Positions 36,819 through 45,383 of a stretch of 64,000 bases of DNA are shown piece by piece. A model generated the notes under the pieces. That model searched no databases. It was not told the DNA's origin and worked only from the letters and a program-made list of their open reading frames with translations. How positions within the stretch are numbered: the first letter of the stretch is position 1; the number at the start of each line of letters is the position of its first letter. The DNA lies in contig NZ_JARUKW010000005.1 in the NCBI RefSeq assembly GCF_029688845.1, positions 124,001-188,000 of the forward strand, given 5' to 3'. Origin of the DNA: Natronococcus sp. A-GB1. GTDB taxonomy: Archaea > Halobacteriota > Halobacteria > Halobacteriales > Natrialbaceae. Position numbers and translations under genes: made by a program.

Positions 36819-38018
36819 ATGCTCGAGGGAGTCAACGTCGCGCTCGGAGTGACGGGGTCGATCGCGGCCGTAAAGACGGTCGAACTGGCCCACGAGCTGC
36901 GACGCCACGGCGCAGCGGTTCGAGGGGTGATGACCGACAGCTCGCGGGGGATCGTCCACCCCTGGGCCGTCGAGTTCGCGACCGAGAACGACGTCGTCAC
37001 CGAGATCACGGGTAGCGTCGAGCACGTCGAGCTCTGCGGGTACGACGGCTGGGCCGACGTGTTCCTGATCGCGCCCGCGACGGCGAACACCGTCGGCAAG
37101 ATCGCGGGTGCGGTCGACGACACGCCCGTGACGACGTGTGCGACGACGGCCCTCGGCGCCGACACACCGGTCGTGATCGCCCCCGCGATGCACGAGCCGA
37201 TGTACGACCACCCCGGCGTGCTCGAGGCGATCGAAACGGTCGAACACTGGGGCGTCGAGTTCGTCGACCCCCGACTCGAGGAGGGGAAAGCGAAGATCGC
37301 CAGCGAGGAAGCGATCGTCGCGGGCGTCGCCCGCACGGTCGGTGGCCGCCCGCTCGAGGGACGTCACGTCGTCGTCACCAGCGGCGCGACGAGCGAGACG
37401 ATCGATCCTGTTCGCGTGCTGACGAACCGGTCGTCGGGGAAGACGGGACGGGCCGTCGCCAGGGCCTGTGCGGTTCGGGGCGCCGACGTGACCCTGGTCC
37501 ACGGCGTCGTCGGCCCGCACTCGCTCGAGGCGGGCGGCGGGTCGGAGTGGGAGTCGATCCCCGGCGTCGAGGTCGAGCGGGTCGAGAGCGCAGCGGAGAT
37601 GCTCGACGCGACCCGCGAGGGCTGTGAGGACGCTGACGCGCTCGTGTCGGTCGCCGCTATCGGCGACTACACCCTCGAGTCGAGCTCGGAGAAGATCCGC
37701 TCCGGTCAGGAGCTGTCCCTGGAGCTCGAGCCCACGCCGAAGCTCATCGACGAGATCCGTGAGACCCACCCCGACCTGCCGATCGTCGGCTTCAAGACCG
37801 AGACCTCCGGCGACGACGAGGCGATGATCGACCGGGCCAGGGAAACCCTCGAGCGGGCGACCCTCGAGTTCGTCGTCGCCAACGACGCGAGCGTCATGGG
37901 ATCGGATCGAACGCGCGCGCTGCTGGTCCGAGGGGAGGAGACGTCATCGTACACGGGCTCGAAGACGGGGCTCTCCCTCGAGGTCGCCGACTCGCTTGCG
38001 GCCGTCCTCGAGACGTAG
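36819..38018 (+). CDS. coaBC: Bifunctional phosphopantothenoylcysteine synthetase/decarboxylase
   Basis: The protein makes 4'-phosphopantetheine for coenzyme A. The 399-residue product has an N-terminal FMN decarboxylase domain (about 1-180: [51 protein letters not shown]) and a C-terminal CTP-dependent synthetase domain (about 185-399: [45 protein letters not shown]). The motif [11 protein letters not shown] carries the catalytic residues of the decarboxylase loop. The start is ATG 36819, 51 bases after the siderophore synthetase; this may be read-through, but the functions are unrelated. Confidence 0.95.
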
Positions 38019-38175
38019 GGCCGGCGACACGTCGGGGTTCCGAGAACGCGCTCCGACGGCCGTGTGGCTCGGTTACAGCGCTCGATGTCGGAGAGAGCCG
38101 TGGTACGGACGATTCAGCGCGGACGGCTCCGGCGTGTATCGTCAACTTTTACTCGCCTACCGTCCGACCCACGAC

Positions 38176-38742
38176 ATGGACCAGCTGAAGCGGTCGCTCC
38201 TCGAGGCGCCGATCATCGAGAAAGACGGCTACCACTACTTCGTCCACCCGATCAGTGACGGCGTCCCGAAGCTCGATCCCGGCCTCCTGCGCGAAATCGT
38301 CATCCGCATCATCCGGAAGGCCGACCTCGAGGACGTCGACCGGATCGTCACGCCCGCCGCGATGGGGATTCACATCTCCACGGCGGTGTCGCTGATGACC
38401 GACATCCCGCTGACCGTCATCCGGAAACGACAGTACGGGCTCGACGACGAGGTCGCGATCTTTCAGGAGACGGGCTACTCCGAGAACGAGATGTACATCA
38501 ACGACGTTCGCGAGGGCGAACGGGTGCTCGTGCTCGACGACGTGCTCTCGACGGGCGGCACGCTGGCAGCGGTGCTCGAGGCGCTCGACGATATCGGCGC
38601 GGAGGTCATCGACACGGTCGCGGTGATCAAGAAGGCCGGTGGCGAGAACAAGGTGGCCGACGCCGGCTACGACGTCAAGACGCTGATCAACGTCGACGTC
38701 GTCGACGGTGAAGTCGTCATCGTCGACGAAGAGGGCGATTAA
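38176..38742 (+). CDS. hpt: Hypoxanthine/guanine phosphoribosyltransferase
   Basis: The 188-residue enzyme salvages purine bases to nucleotides with PRPP. The PRPP motif is [18 protein letters not shown] (about 117-134); upstream are [16 protein letters not shown] and [21 protein letters not shown]. The archaeal type is related to APRT-like transferases. The start ATG at 38176 lies about 27 bases after a TTTTAC element (38145-38150), so the transcript is probably leaderless. Confidence 0.92.
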
Positions 38743-38944: not shown

Positions 38945-40882
38945 ATGGTGCAGGATCACAAGCAATCCTCAATCGATATCGATAGACGGCGATTACTGCA
39001 GGGTGCTGGTGGGGTAAGTATCGCGGCGGTCGCCGGCTGTCTTGGTGGAGACGACGGCGACGACGACGCGCCGATTCACGTTCAGCTGGAGGTCAACTCC
39101 GACAACGACGACCGGGTCCAGATGGTCGACCTGATCGCGACCTCCCTGGAGGAGTCGGGCTACTTCACGACGGAAATCGACACCTACGAGTTCAACGACT
39201 ACACGCAGCGGGTAATGGATCCCGAGTACGCCGAGAACGGGTACGTCCCCTGTATCGGACTGTCGGGGACGTTCAACCCCGAAAGCTTCTGTCAGGCGCT
39301 TCACCACAGCGACAACATCGGACAGTGTTGTAACCTGAACGGGATCAGCGACGAGGAACTCGATCAGATGATGGACGACGCCCGCTACGGCGTCGACGTG
39401 GCGGACGACGACGAGGAACGACGCGAGCGCTACGACGAGATCTGGGAGTACCTCGCCGAGGAACGGTACAGCTCGATCACTCACTTCGACCTGCAGGCCG
39501 GCGTGATGAACACTAACGTTCACGGGTTCCGTCAGAACCCGTTCACCGAGAGCACGTTCGAATACGGCCTCTACGCGCCACAGGACGAGGTCGTCACCTG
39601 GATGGACGAGGACGCCCATCCCGACGAGACCGACCTCTCGGACCTCGAGGAGGGAGGCACCCTCCGGGGCGGACTCACCGAGGATCCCGAGCTGTTCGAC
39701 CCGCCGTACACGACGGGCGCGAACTCGACGATCGTCCAGGTGCTGATCTTCGAGCAGCTGGTCGTCAGCGACAGCGAGGGGAACCTCTACCCGTGGCTCG
39801 CCGAGGACTACGAACTCGTCGAGACGCAGGACGTCGACCGAGCCGACTACGAGGAGTACATGATCGAGGTCGACGCCGACGAGGAAGGCGTCCTCGACAC
39901 CGAGGAGCAGGTCGTCGTCACCCACCCCGAGGACAACCCGATCGAGGACGACACGGTGCGCGTGCTCACGCCGGAGCAGGCCGGCGACGCCGTCGACGAC
40001 GGCACCTTCGGGATGCAGTTCCAGTACGAGCTCCACGAGGGAATCGAGTTCACCAACGGCGAGGAGCTCACCGCCGAGCACGTCGTCGCGACCGCCGAGC
40101 GCTACGAGAACTCCGACCTCGAGGCCCAGACGTACGACTCGCTGCTGTACGCCGAGGAGGTCGACGAGTACACCGTCAACCTCTACGCACAGATCCCCGA
40201 CGCCGAGGCCGAACGCGAGCTGCCCGGCTTGTACATCCACTCGCTCGAACAGGCCGAACTCGAAGGCGGCGAGATCGACCCCAGCGCCGACAACGACCCG
40301 ATCGGGACCGGACCGTACGAGCTCAGCGACTACTCGGAGGGACAGTACATCGAGTACACGAAAAACGACGGCTACTGGCTCGAGGAGATCGGCCTCGAGA
40401 GCAAGGAGTGGTTCGACGGGCCCGAGGACTTCCCGGACGGCCCCGTCATCGACGAACTCGAGTTCGAGATCGTTCCCGACGACTCGAGTCGCGCCGGAGC
40501 GCTCCAGAGCGACGAGATCGACATCACCTACGGGCTGGCCACGGGCGTCCTCGACGACTTCGAGGAGGACGACGACTACGTCATCGACAGCGTCGAGGCC
40601 GGCGGCTACGAGTACATCCAGTACCCGATGAACGTCGAGCCGTGGGACGACGAGCGTCTCCGCCGGGCCGTTAACCACCTCGTGCCGCGCCAGGAGATCG
40701 TCGACAACGTGCTTAACGGCTGGGCGCGTCCTGCCTGGACCGATCTGCCGGAGCTCGCCGAGGAGAACGGGACGACCGACGCCGACGCCCTCGAGGAGAA
40801 CATCCGGCCCTACAACGAGTACGATCCCGAAGCCGCCGCGGAGCTGATCGAAGAAGTGATCGACGACCACGACCTCGAGTGA
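38945..40882 (+). CDS. ABC dipeptide/oligopeptide-binding lipoprotein, circularly permuted
   Basis: This 645-residue extracellular solute receptor belongs to family 5 (DppA/OppA type). Signal: IDRRRLLQGAGGVSIAAVAGC, Tat type, with lipid anchor Cys32. Normal proteins of this family then start with a G-G-T-L strand and end with a late alpha/beta segment. Here residues 42-225 are that late segment: IHVQLEVNSDNDDRVQM, TYEFNDYTQRV, GTFNPESFCQALHH, ISDEELDQMMDDARYG and RYDEIWEYLAEERYSSI. The N-terminal lobe begins only at 237 (GGTLRGGLTEDPELFDPP). The protein ends at YDPEAAAELIEEVIDDHDLE, right where the late segment would normally follow. All parts are present once, in rotated order. It heads a complete permease/ATPase operon. 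Confidence 0.88.
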   Translation: MVQDHKQSSIDIDRRRLLQGAGGVSIAAVAGCLGGDDGDDDAPIHVQLEVNSDNDDRVQMVDLIATSLEESGYFTTEIDTYEFNDYTQRVMDPEYAENGYVPCIGLSGTFNPESFCQALHHSDNIGQCCNLNGISDEELDQMMDDARYGVDVADDDEERRERYDEIWEYLAEERYSSITHFDLQAGVMNTNVHGFRQNPFTESTFEYGLYAPQDEVVTWMDEDAHPDETDLSDLEEGGTLRGGLTEDPELFDPPYTTGANSTIVQVLIFEQLVVSDSEGNLYPWLAEDYELVETQDVDRADYEEYMIEVDADEEGVLDTEEQVVVTHPEDNPIEDDTVRVLTPEQAGDAVDDGTFGMQFQYELHEGIEFTNGEELTAEHVVATAERYENSDLEAQTYDSLLYAEEVDEYTVNLYAQIPDAEAERELPGLYIHSLEQAELEGGEIDPSADNDPIGTGPYELSDYSEGQYIEYTKNDGYWLEEIGLESKEWFDGPEDFPDGPVIDELEFEIVPDDSSRAGALQSDEIDITYGLATGVLDDFEEDDDYVIDSVEAGGYEYIQYPMNVEPWDDERLRRAVNHLVPRQEIVDNVLNGWARPAWTDLPELAEENGTTDADALEENIRPYNEYDPEAAAELIEEVIDDHDLE

Positions 40883-40921
40883 GGTCGCCCCGGTAGCCGT
40901 TTGCAGTGTTCGAAAAATATC

Positions 40922-41878
40922 ATGAGTTTACGACGTTTCATACTGAAGCGACTGTTATCGATCGTTCCGATTCTGTTCGGCGTCTCGGTGATCACCTTCG
41001 CGCTGGTGCATCTCACCCCGGGTGATCCGATCAGCCAGATGACCGCAACGAACCCCCATATGACGGCGGCCGACGAGGCACAGATGCGTGCCCGATACGG
41101 GCTCGACGGCCCCGTCTGGGAGCAGTACCTGACCTGGATGGGCAACGTCCTGACTGGGGACTTCGGCGAGGTCATCAGCTCCGGCCAGGACGTCTCGTCG
41201 GTTATCATCGCGAGACTCCCCGAGACGATCGCACTCGGCCTGTTCGGCTGGGTGTTCGGTCTCGTGATCGCGATCCCGACCGGGATCTACGCGGCCATCA
41301 ACAAGGACCAGATCGCCGACACCGTCAGCCGCTTCGTCGCGCTGTCGGGGATCTCGATCCCGAACTTCTGGCTCGGCCTGATGCTGATCCTGATCGGCGC
41401 GCTCTGGCTGGAGATCTGGACCGTGTTGCCACCCTCTCGGCTTCCGCTGTACCACCCGCAGATGCTGTTCTACCTGATCCTTCCGGGAATCACGATCGGG
41501 ACGGCCGCGGCGGCGAGTATCATGCGCGTAATGCGGACCTCGATGGCCGAGGAGCTGAACAAGGAGTACGTGACCGCAGCGCGAGCGAAGGGGCTCCCCG
41601 AACGACAGGTGATCCTCAAGCACGTACTGCGAAACTCGCTGATCTCGGTCGTGACCCTCGCGGCGACGCTGACGGCGAGCATCGTCGCCGGCTCGGTCGT
41701 CGTCGAGGTGGTGTTCAACTGGCCGGGGCTCGGCCGGGAGTTCATCGAAGCGATCAACCAGCGCGAGATCAACCTGATCATGGCGATCACGCTGTTTACC
41801 GGCGTGTTCATCGTCCTGGCGAATCTGTTGGCGGACATCCTGTACGCGGTTCTCGATCCGAGGATCAGATATGAGTAA
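40922..41878 (+). CDS. ABC dipeptide/oligopeptide permease, DppB type
   Basis: The 318-residue protein has six membrane helices. The N-terminus MSLRRFILKRLLSIVPILFG and the sequence FALVHLTPGDPI are typical of the B subunit. The cytoplasmic EAA coupling loop is EYVTAARAKGLPERQVILKHVLRNS. It forms the channel with the 41871-42920 product. The start ATG 40922 is 39 bases after the binding-protein stop, and the gene overlaps the next one by eight bases, so this is one operon. Confidence 0.92.
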   Translation: MSLRRFILKRLLSIVPILFGVSVITFALVHLTPGDPISQMTATNPHMTAADEAQMRARYGLDGPVWEQYLTWMGNVLTGDFGEVISSGQDVSSVIIARLPETIALGLFGWVFGLVIAIPTGIYAAINKDQIADTVSRFVALSGISIPNFWLGLMLILIGALWLEIWTVLPPSRLPLYHPQMLFYLILPGITIGTAAAASIMRVMRTSMAEELNKEYVTAARAKGLPERQVILKHVLRNSLISVVTLAATLTASIVAGSVVVEVVFNWPGLGREFIEAINQREINLIMAITLFTGVFIVLANLLADILYAVLDPRIRYE

Positions 41879-42920
41879 CGAGCAACACACCGAGCGCGGA
41901 CGAATCCGAGTGACCGGCTTCGACCCGGAGCAGGTCCGACAGCGCGACTCGCTGTCGGACTGGACCGAGGAGAGCGGCGGCGAGACCGAGGGGCGGTTCG
42001 AACGGGCCTGGAAGCGGTTCAAGCGCAATCGGACGGCGCTGATCGGGCTTTTCGTCGTCGCCGTTCTCACCCTGCTCGCGGTCTTCGCCCGCCCGATTAC
42101 GATGATGGGGATGACGGTCCAGCCGTTCTCGCTCGCTCCCTACGATCCGACGACGATCATGTACATGAGCCCGGAGTCGTCGGCGGGAACCTACGACTCG
42201 CCGACGCTCTCTCACCCGATGGGGACCGACGGCGACGGCCGTGACCTGTTCTCGCGGGTCCTGTACGGCGGCCGGTACAGCATCTCGATCGGCTTCATCG
42301 TCGTCGGGCTCAGCGCCACCTTCGGACTGGTTTACGGGGCGATCTCGGGGTACTACGGCGGCTGGACCGACGAGATCCTGATGCGGATCGTCGACACCGT
42401 CTACGCGTTCCCCGGTCTCATCCTGGCGCTGATCATCGTCGCCACGCTCGGCGGCGGCTACTGGCAGCTCGTCGCCGCGTTCGCGATTCCGGGCTGGATT
42501 ACCTACGCTCGCCTCATCCGCGGTGAAGTCCTGACGATCAAGGAAAACGAGTACGTTATGGCCGCGAAGGCGTTAGGTGCGCGCGATCGATCGGTGATCT
42601 TCAAACACATCGTCCCGAACGCGATGCCGCCGCTGATCGTCTACGGGACGCTCAACATCGGCACCGTCGTCATCGGCGTCGCCGCGCTCGGGTTCCTCGG
42701 GCTCGGCATGCCGCCCGGCACCGCCGAGTGGGGGACGATGCTCGATCAGACGCGAGAGACGCTCATCCAGGGTCCCGGCGGTGCGATCCCCTGGTGGGCC
42801 ACGGTGTTCCCCGGCGGCGCGATCTTCCTGTTCGTGATGGCGATGAACATGATCGGCGACGGGGTCAACGACGCCTTCGACGCCCAGGAGACGGGCATCG
42901 AAGGGCAGGGAGGTGGCTAA
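41871..42920 (+). CDS. ABC dipeptide/oligopeptide permease, DppC type
   Basis: The 349-residue protein has an N-terminal cytoplasmic extension (about 1-55), a first helix (LIGLFVVAVLTLLAVFA), an extracellular loop with HPMGTDGDGRDLFSRVLYG, and five further helices. The coupling loop is EYVMAAKALGARDRSVIFKHIVPNA. The C subunit pairs with DppB. It overlaps DppB by eight bases and ends one base before the DppD start. Confidence 0.92.
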   Translation: MSNEQHTERGRIRVTGFDPEQVRQRDSLSDWTEESGGETEGRFERAWKRFKRNRTALIGLFVVAVLTLLAVFARPITMMGMTVQPFSLAPYDPTTIMYMSPESSAGTYDSPTLSHPMGTDGDGRDLFSRVLYGGRYSISIGFIVVGLSATFGLVYGAISGYYGGWTDEILMRIVDTVYAFPGLILALIIVATLGGGYWQLVAAFAIPGWITYARLIRGEVLTIKENEYVMAAKALGARDRSVIFKHIVPNAMPPLIVYGTLNIGTVVIGVAALGFLGLGMPPGTAEWGTMLDQTRETLIQGPGGAIPWWATVFPGGAIFLFVMAMNMIGDGVNDAFDAQETGIEGQGGG

Positions 42921-42921
42921 G

Positions 42922-44007
42922 ATGGCACTACTCGAGGTCAACGATCTCACGGTAAAGTTCTACACGCAGGAGGGCGTCGTCACCGCCGTCGACGACCTCT
43001 CCTATCGCATCGAGCGCGGCGAGAAGTTCGGCGTCGTCGGCGAGAGCGGTGCCGGGAAAAGCGTCACCGCCCTCTCGCTGATGCGGCTCATCGAGAGTCC
43101 GGGTCGCATCGAGAGCGGCGAGATCCTGTTCAAAGGTGAGGACTTGCTCGAGATGAGCGAGGAGGAGATCAGGGACGTCCGGGGCAACGAGATCGCGATG
43201 ATCTTCCAGGACGCCCAGACGGCGCTGAACCCCGTCTACACCGTCGGCGAACAGATCGGCGAGGCGGTCAGACACCACCTCGACTACGACGAGGAGGAGG
43301 CCCGCGAACGGACGATCCAGCTCCTCGACACCGTCGGCATCCCCGAGGCCGAGTCGCGGTACTCCGACTACCCACACGAGTTCTCCGGCGGGATGCAACA
43401 GCGGGCGGTGATCGCGATGGCGCTGTCCTGTGATCCCGATCTGTTGCTCTGTGACGAGCCGACGACGGCGCTGGACGTGACGATCGAAGCCCAGATCTTA
43501 GAAGAGCTCGAGAGCCTGGCCGACGAGTTCGACACGGCGATCCAGCTCATCACACACGACCTGGGCGTCGTCGCCGAGGTCTGTGACCGAGTGATGGTCA
43601 TGTACGCGGGCAGTCCCGTCGAGAAGGCGCCCGTCGAGGAGCTGTACTATGACCCGAAACATCCCTACACGGTCGGGCTGATGAGCTCGATCCCTCGCGT
43701 CGGCGACAGGCGCGAGCGCCTCCAGACGATCCCCGGCACGATGCCGGATCTCGTTGAGCTTCCGCCGGGCTGTAGCTTCCACCCCCGGTGTCCGTACGCC
43801 GAGGACGTCTGTACCAAGCGAGATCCTCCGCTGCTGGATCCGGAGACGGGCCAGGACGCGTCCGGCGTGGACGCCGAACGCGCGGCGGCGTGTCTCGAGT
43901 ACACTGGCGAGCTCCAGGAGGGTCTCGACTACGAGGTCACGGTCGGCGACGGCCACGAGACCCGCGCCGACGCGACCGCGCCGAACCCGGAGGGTGATCG
44001 GCGATGA
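42922..44007 (+). CDS. ABC dipeptide/oligopeptide ATPase, DppD type
   Basis: The protein has 361 residues. Walker A is GESGAGKSVTALSLM (about 37-51), the signature HEFSGGMQQRAVIAMAL, Walker B LLLCDEPTTALD, and the H-loop ITHDLG. The C-terminal oligopeptide-transporter domain has the cysteine motif GCSFHPRCPYAEDVC with a later CLEY, a set known to hold an iron-sulfur cluster in some Opp ATPases. The start is ATG 42922, with GGGAGGTGG upstream. It pairs with the following ATPase. Confidence 0.93.
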   Translation: MALLEVNDLTVKFYTQEGVVTAVDDLSYRIERGEKFGVVGESGAGKSVTALSLMRLIESPGRIESGEILFKGEDLLEMSEEEIRDVRGNEIAMIFQDAQTALNPVYTVGEQIGEAVRHHLDYDEEEARERTIQLLDTVGIPEAESRYSDYPHEFSGGMQQRAVIAMALSCDPDLLLCDEPTTALDVTIEAQILEELESLADEFDTAIQLITHDLGVVAEVCDRVMVMYAGSPVEKAPVEELYYDPKHPYTVGLMSSIPRVGDRRERLQTIPGTMPDLVELPPGCSFHPRCPYAEDVCTKRDPPLLDPETGQDASGVDAERAAACLEYTGELQEGLDYEVTVGDGHETRADATAPNPEGDRR

Positions 44008-45383
44008 GCCGGTCCAGCGAGGAGCCGATTCTGCGGGCCGAGAACCTGACGAAGTACTACGACGCGAGCAGCGGGTTCATCGACGGGCTGCTCGGCCGAA
44101 CGCAGTGGGTCAAGGCCGTCGACGGAATCGACCTCGAGCTCCACGAGGGCGAGACCCTCGGCGTCGTCGGCGAGTCGGGTTGTGGAAAGAGTACGCTCGG
44201 CCGATCGCTGCTGCGTCTGCTCGAGCCGACCGACGGCTCGGTCTACTACCGCCAGCGGACCGGTGCGGGCGACGCCCGCGAGGAGGTCGAGATCACCGAC
44301 CTCTCGAGTTCGGAGCTGCGGGATCTGCGAACGGACGTCCAGTACATCTTTCAGGACCCGTTCTCGAGTCTGAACCCTCGGCTGACGGTCGGCGACATCA
44401 TCGGCGAACCGCTCGACATCCACGACATCGCCGAGGGCGAGGCGCGAACCGAACGGATCTACGAGCTGTTAGAGACCGTCGGCCTCAGCCAGAACCACGC
44501 CCACCGCTACCCACACGAGTTCTCCGGCGGCCAGCGCCAGCGGATCGGCATCGCCCGGGCGCTGGCGGTCGACCCGGAGGTCATCGTCTGTGATGAACCC
44601 GTCTCGGCGCTCGACGTCTCGGTGCAGGCCCAGATCCTCAACCTGCTCGAGGACCTCCAGGAGGAGTTCGGTCTCTCGTATATCTTCATCGCCCACGACC
44701 TGAGCGTCGTCGAGCACATCTCCGATCGGATCGCAGTGATGTACCTCGGCGAGTTCGCGGAGGTCGGGACGACCGAGGAGGTGTTCTCGCCGCCCCACCA
44801 CCCCTACGCGGAGGCGCTGCTGTCGGCGATCCCGGAGCCGGATCCGCTCTGGAACGGCGAGCAGATCCTGCTTCCCGGAACCGTTCCCTCGCCGATGAAC
44901 CCGCCGTCGGGCTGTCGGTTCCACACCCGGTGTCCGCGGATCATCCCGCCTGACGGGATCGACCTCCCGCAGGACGTCTGGCGCTCGATCGTCGATCTCA
45001 AGCTACGGGTTCGAGGCGCCGAGGAGCTCGAGGCGGTCACCGCGGTCGACGAGATCGAAGAGGAGGCGACCGATCCAAACGACCTCACACGCGAGGCGTT
45101 CGATCGGTCGGTCCGCGAGGAGTTCGAGATTCCCGAGACCGTTTCCGACCCGACGGCCGAGCAAGCGCTCGACGAGAGTCTCGACGCGCTTCGCGACGCG
45201 GAGTTCGAGGCCGCCCGGGAGCGACTCGAGGAGACGTTCACGTCGCCCTGTGAAACCCACGACCCACATCAGGTTCCGACGGGCGAGACCCACGAGATCG
45301 CCTGTCTGCTGTACGACGACCGGTACACCGACGGCGAGTTCCGGTCTGACGACGGCGCGGGCGACGCCGTCGCCGACGACTGA
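44004..45383 (+). CDS. ABC dipeptide/oligopeptide ATPase, DppF type, with C-terminal insertion
   Basis: The 459-residue protein is longer than bacterial DppF (about 330). Walker A is [15 protein letters not shown], the signature [17 protein letters not shown], Walker [13 protein letters not shown], and the H-loop IAHDLS. The oligopeptide-transporter domain has GCRFHTRCP; about 110 residues (about 320-430, [18 protein letters not shown] onward) separate it from the last cysteines, CETHDP and IACLLY. The insert is acidic and helix-rich ([11 protein letters not shown]). ATGA overlap with DppD at 44004. Confidence 0.93.

Follow-up and report, generated by a model that had tools for sequence, protein, structure and literature searches.

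A circularly permuted family-5 ABC receptor in haloarchaea: the order of its parts, its relatives and its probable history

Family-5 receptors close on their ligand between two lobes and dock on the B and C components of an ABC importer. In the window, by which we mean the whole stretch of 64,000 nucleotides of Natronococcus sp. A-GB1 analyzed here, one ORF of 645 amino acids (38945-40882, + strand) encodes a Tat-type lipoprotein of this family (SBP_bac_5, cluster C). A reading of the sequence without database searches had proposed that the part that normally ends such receptors stands here at the front. The questions raised by this locus are whether the order is real, how widely it is shared, and whether it arose once, arose repeatedly or has been undone.

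Parts of the receptor gene and their order

Residues 1-32 (38945-39040) form the Tat signal peptide and lipobox in the translation (RRR at 14-16, AGC, Cys32), much as that reading had described them; the Pfam TAT_signal match at residues 11-31 is weak and lies under its own cut-off. An Asp/Gly-rich tether follows (residues 33-40; 39041-39064, + strand), which now abuts the displaced segment (residues 41-223; 39065-39613, + strand). This segment is the C-terminal part in normal family-5 receptors, as judged from an HMM, from PDB 3m8u and from L043, a relative with the usual or orthodox order. A joint linker from W219 to E236 (39599-39652, + strand), made of the old C-terminal tail and the old pre-N motif (TDLSDLxEGG), leads into the normally N-terminal segment (residues 237-645; 39653-40879, + strand), which is placed by HMM positions 34-354 and PF00496 positions 16-275. 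The protein terminates at the point where the displaced segment would begin.

An HMM was constructed from 16 orthodox-order family-5 proteins (526 positions). Its positions 357-525 match residues 41-222 of the window protein (146 bits), and its positions 34-354 match residues 235-638 (344 bits). The two matches are swapped and seamless relative to the orthodox order, and the collinear order of the SBP_bac_5 parts is absent. The same swap is seen by phmmer against PDB 3m8u, in which residues 357-604 correspond to chain positions 69-315 and residues 40-209 to positions 346-505. The proposed order is thus confirmed: the window gene is a circular permutant, with each part present once and the order rotated.

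The only Pfam family above cut-off is PF00496 (180.1 bits, cut-off 32.4). The sequence-only reading had predicted two PF00496 hits in swapped order; the best stretch, model 16-275 of 368, does fall on the N segment, but the second was not located. The C segment alone gave no PF00496 match at E 0.1. In orthodox L043 the PF00496 match continues over the joint (model 16-339). Matches in PDB, family-5 by name, include 3m8u, 5u4o and 1xoc, and the scores for the NCBIfam equivalogs lie under their cut-offs (Opp5A_nikA, 103 bits with a cut-off of 600; DppA, 51 with a cut-off of 1005). Two AlphaFold models were obtained, both of low quality, one from 7 rows with a pLDDT of 33 and one from 15 rows with a pLDDT of 52 and a pTM of 0.47. 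In a Foldseek search with the latter, the 50 rows listed have titles like those of cluster C receptors, at TM values by query of only 0.20-0.32.

Operon, locus and relatives

The gene heads an intact operon, as had been noticed from the sequence. Downstream on the + strand are genes for permeases of the DppB/NikB type (40901-41878; NCBIfam Opp2B, 309 bits, cut-off 350) and the DppC/NikC type (41871-42920; Opp4C, 272 bits, cut-off 350), followed by ATPases of the OppD/DppD type (42913-44007; OppD, 383 bits, cut-off 575) and the OppF/DppF type (44004-45383; PRK11308, 384 bits, cut-off 408), all four scores being under the NCBIfam cut-offs. From this context the window protein is predicted to serve its BCDF importer as a peptide/solute receptor of the ordinary kind, which is its likely function. 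Upstream lie two markers of a conserved locus, also on the + strand. The first (36819-38018), which we take from its sequence to be a CoaBC-like gene, is common to permuted and orthodox loci; the second (37996-38742) is presumably a phosphoribosyltransferase-like (PRT) ORF, again named from its sequence, with a true start probably further in.

The order of the window protein is shared by 47 genomes from three haloarchaeal families. In the family of the window genome (f1), 24 of 125 genomes carry collinear, and hence permuted, homologues with 54-100% identity. Named relatives include Natronococcus sp. A-GB7 (98% identity) and N. amylolyticus (95%). In family f4, permuted homologues were found in 21 genomes out of 170 at E up to 1e-100, and in family f3 in 2 out of 146 at E up to 1e-130. 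When 391 genomes were drawn from across the class and searched at E 1e-70, the permuted matches listed all belonged to these three families. All eight family-f1 loci that were fetched for having an N-segment match only proved to be permuted. An assembly error or a one-off chimera, for which the sequence-only reading had proposed mapping reads across the joint, is exceedingly improbable: the order is common to 47 genomes, and all 24 family-f1 genomes show a match that is collinear over the gene. Misassembly was rejected on this ground, and because so many genomes carry the same order such reads are unneeded. The dN/dS is 0.11-0.37 in all five pairs formed with permuted relatives; together with the order kept in 47 genomes, this argues that the gene is probably functional, as had been supposed. 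We conclude that the circular permutation of this member of a familiar receptor family is genuine and conserved, and that the permuted protein probably works.

Eighty loci were scored for order, giving 43 permuted and 37 orthodox (eight added loci were divided four and four), a ratio that is no natural frequency, the permuted loci having been searched with the window protein. All 80 proteins show a single BLAST match per segment (E up to 1e-8), in agreement with the earlier statement that all parts occur once, and no partly duplicated intermediate was found among them. The nearest orthodox proteins are 59-70% identical to the window protein over the N segment and 54-63% over the C segment, with L078 at 70% and 63%, respectively. 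A fusion between the C part of one receptor and the N part of another might be considered, as some genes differ between their parts (for example L054, 60% and 48% identity). This is very unlikely, however: both parts match the same orthodox proteins at similar identity, as in L043, whose halves adjoin at 142-552 and 552-734 with 60% and 61% identity, and in L044, with 55% and 54% to the two window segments. Moreover, trees of the N and C segments yield the same 40-row group.

BCDF operons are headed by permuted and by orthodox receptor genes alike, and the gene order CoaBC, PRT, SBP, B, C, D, F is held by both types in several genomes; orthodox receptors at this locus were found in G085, G021 and G119. 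The like operons and the common locus for both orders indicate that the rearrangement most likely happened within a standing operon. A different arrangement is seen in G022 and G019 (L054:6966-19722 and L129), where an operon of permuted SBP, B and C shows neither a D nor an F gene downstream that would belong to it; a convergent operon opposite has both, along with an orthodox receptor in L054. The two receptors at loci of this kind may share ATPases.

Gain and probable loss of the permuted order

In orthodox proteins the C-terminus ends at about YLDRD and the mature N-terminus has a motif ahead of EGG. In permuted proteins these are fused into a joint, typically W-(I/L/M)-D-...-TDLSDL-x-EGG, with a conserved linker of 16-22 residues from W to EGG. 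We scored the linkers with a profile built without the lineage under test and compared them with the best fusions that could be made from 41 orthodox proteins. Top scores above every possible orthodox fusion are reached in lineages A, C, D, E, G and H; in lineages B and F, and for certain A and E members, the linkers do no better than the best of these fusions. The linker of L063, a sister of an orthodox gene considered below, scores 20.3, compared to 13.7 for the best fusion.

Trees were calculated with both segments set in one common order. One tree has 61 rows, the 80 loci having been reduced to below 90% identity; a second has 48 rows, with 40 of 88 loci left out by hand (near copies and distant orthodox rows) and the linker residues removed. 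Both require three changes of order, and for the 48-row tree the lower and upper limits of the 5-95% bootstrap range are likewise three. With the N segment only, four changes are required and the backbone is left open. An earlier tree of 41 rows, 24 of them permuted, had given one permuted clade with the concatenated and the C-only alignments, but not with N only; it is superseded by the denser sampling. A single clade of permuted rows is rejected (p=0.00037; 3e-9 in the AU test with 48 rows).

Two groups of orthodox genes fall inside the permuted clade. The N, C and BCDF trees all pair orthodox L087 (G182) with the permuted gene of G165 as its sister, and L063/L102 and the G182 gene are sisters in all three. 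A tree that keeps the G182 gene outside is rejected (p=0.0013; 7e-12 in the AU test with 48 rows). The second group comprises seven rows from families f9 and f3, and its placement outside is a borderline case (p=0.141 for five of the seven with 61 rows, and 0.037 with 48 rows).

These results can be read in another way, namely that permutation proceeded forward repeatedly at a structural hot spot, without reversal, and that the orthodox genes inside the clade never changed. Family-5 receptors outside this clade were permuted separately in the same region (see below), the seven-row group is not firmly inside the clade, and the joints in most of its rows resemble primary orthodox joints. In our own reading of the tree, if weakly supported branches are resolved freely, three gains might do as well as one gain with two losses. 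We nevertheless consider repeated forward permutation rather unlikely. If it were irreversible, permutation would need eight gains on the maximum likelihood tree and six to nine across the 200 bootstrap trees. Allowing loss raises the lnL from -19.4 to -14.4, an advantage of 5.0 log units. Placing L063, the G182 gene and the seven rows outside the other permuted rows is also disfavored (p=0.015, 48 rows), and the linkers of six lineages outscore all orthodox fusions, as described above.

The orthodox order in G182 and in the seven rows could instead derive from recombination of a permuted gene with an orthodox relative. Both kinds of receptor gene occur about 10 kb apart in single genomes (G022, G019 and G018), and the SBP and BCDF trees conflict in places. 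The BCDF tree, obtained by a quick method, requires five changes; it groups orthodox G099 with G165/G182 and gives the seven-row group no settled place. This conflict with the receptor tree suggests that recombination plays a part. On the other hand, the N and C trees agree on G182, and its gene has no clear orthodox-like patch: of 15 comparison windows, primary orthodox rows are ahead in one (by 0.02) and level in another, in a comparison that took in more permuted than orthodox rows. With this lead and tie, and with the windows at the joint uninformative, recombination with an orthodox relative is a rather unlikely but conceivable route.

The trees, the loss model and the shared linker together point to one gain and one reversal, in G182, and possibly a second. 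The evidence favors a reversal in G182, which is well supported though it rests on one genome; the second reversal is borderline. In the account that we consider probable, a working receptor of a BCDF importer was permuted once in place, the order was passed on, and at least one lineage, that of G182, reverted. The sequence-only reading had treated the gene as a single oddity: the permutation is real, but the order is clade-wide and was probably undone at least once, and other permutations arose separately.

According to this account, an orthodox gene at the head of its operon would have been rearranged once, with the part beyond the loop that precedes beta-strand IHVQLEV relocated to follow the lipobox tether. 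A short linker, as the alignments show, now connects the old C-terminal tail to the old N-terminal entry. The route may have been a duplication followed by trimming or a segment transfer. Fold and binding site would have been kept, with the lipid tether now presumably hanging on the lobe that holds the cut. The trees and the shared linker suggest that the permuted order, found in three haloarchaeal families, was then inherited and undone in G182, perhaps also in a second lineage.

The nine bases GACCTCGAG, which occur at 39641-39649 and 40871-40879, had been interpreted as the scar of a trimmed tandem duplication. This candidate was dropped as a chance repeat. Three copies of the sequence lie in the gene, among 80 different 9-mers that are repeated there, and the end of the protein that carries it varies among relatives.

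Other permuted receptors and known systems

PF00496 finds eight genes in the window genome, of which four, including the window gene, are permuted. The other three, all on the - strand, lie on contigs C57 (two genes) and C54 (one). Receptor P0007 (L304:5245-6993) matches the HMM at positions 360-501 (34 bits) and then 33-357, a second (L304:7916-9709) at 362-507 (38 bits) and then 35-356, and that of C54 (L303:5955-7700), which is collinear with P0007 (9-578), weakly at 348-503 (17 bits) and then at 47-323. The Pfam match in these three genes ends at 285-286; one has a piece under the cut-off, 287-360, upstream. Relatives of P0007 were detected in 127 of 194 genomes of the class (E 1e-25), and 30 relative loci, fetched from among the best, were all collinear with it. 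To judge from these matches, P0007-type permutation is common in haloarchaea. In the window genome such genes adjoin PAP2-type phosphatase-like genes and have no BCDF operon nearby.

Further permuted receptors, from G131 and G130, fall with P0007 and its relatives, the second permuted group (91/87, unstarred); BCDF-type genes lie beside them. Among the permuted receptors L296:4477-6249, L297:4726-6477, L298:4437-6278 and L299:4174-6009 (G131, G130 and G139), three of the four adjoin BCDF-type genes, and their C matches score 13-54 bits. A third group (L062:5816-7477 and L289-L295) is permuted in eight of eight loci, with a somewhat earlier cut: model positions 344-352 to 512-524 come first, followed by 23-36 to 330-340, and a helix stands ahead of the displaced strand. 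Its genes head an operon in genera g16, g10, g13 and g25, and seven of the eight loci are at the CoaBC-PRT locus.

With N segments (315 columns), one clade of all permuted rows is rejected (p=1e-37), as is one clade of the window type and the third group (p=0.0007). Unless old reversals were many, this suggests that family-5 receptors would have been permuted at least three separate times in the same region of the fold. A broader reading, which we regard as evenly poised, is that permutation in haloarchaeal family-5 receptors is reversible and recurrent, with at least three origins in the same fold region, a window clade that gained the order once and lost it once or twice, and one syntenic locus at which orthodox, permuted and differently permuted receptors are now found. 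If this is true, moving the tether between lobes may tune docking on the importer.

The old N- and C-termini both lie in domain I of DppA. A PDB search aligns residue 635 of the window protein with DppA chain residue 335. In the E. coli DppABCDF system, according to one report, salt bridges to the ligand use DppA R383 and D436, and a scoop of DppB touches both lobes of DppA (PMC12136057). Given the alignment at residue 635, and assuming the offset of signal-peptide numbering, R383 and D436 should lie in the moved segment. All parts of the window protein, and the BCDF operon too, are homologous to those of DppA, NikA, HbpA and AppA (cluster C/SBP_bac_5); compared to these receptors the parts are swapped, and the lipid tether would have moved to the other lobe.

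A naturally permuted, tethered ABC receptor has been described in Treponema, TpMglB-2 (Tp0684). It is reported to have kept its glucose binding and to undergo a conformational change with it, and the authors speculate about tethering in a similar vein (PMC4990184). TpMglB-2 is a cluster B sugar receptor ("Type Ic / Cluster Bc"), presumably with another fold, and its permuted part is only 13% identical to that of EcMglB, whereas the orthodox twins of the window clade reach 70%. The window protein belongs to family 5 by its sequence matches. Permutation by duplication or by cut-and-paste is described in a further source (PMC3320104); the outcome and linker of the window gene fit either, and no duplicated intermediate was seen here.

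The literature matches listed (open-licence PMC text) included neither a permuted family-5 receptor nor a permutation that had been reversed. Reversal in nature would be unusual, and the surprising part of the present results is the recurrence together with the likely reversal. Natural permutants are often known only in comparison with distant relatives; here there are twins with up to 70% segment identity. With such close twins, in matching operons and sometimes at the same locus, the cost or gain of a permutation becomes measurable on natural pairs, in folding, lobe closure, docking and tethering. A collinear domain search shortens permuted proteins: in nine that were scanned, the end of the main Pfam match falls at positions 257 to 286 out of 368.
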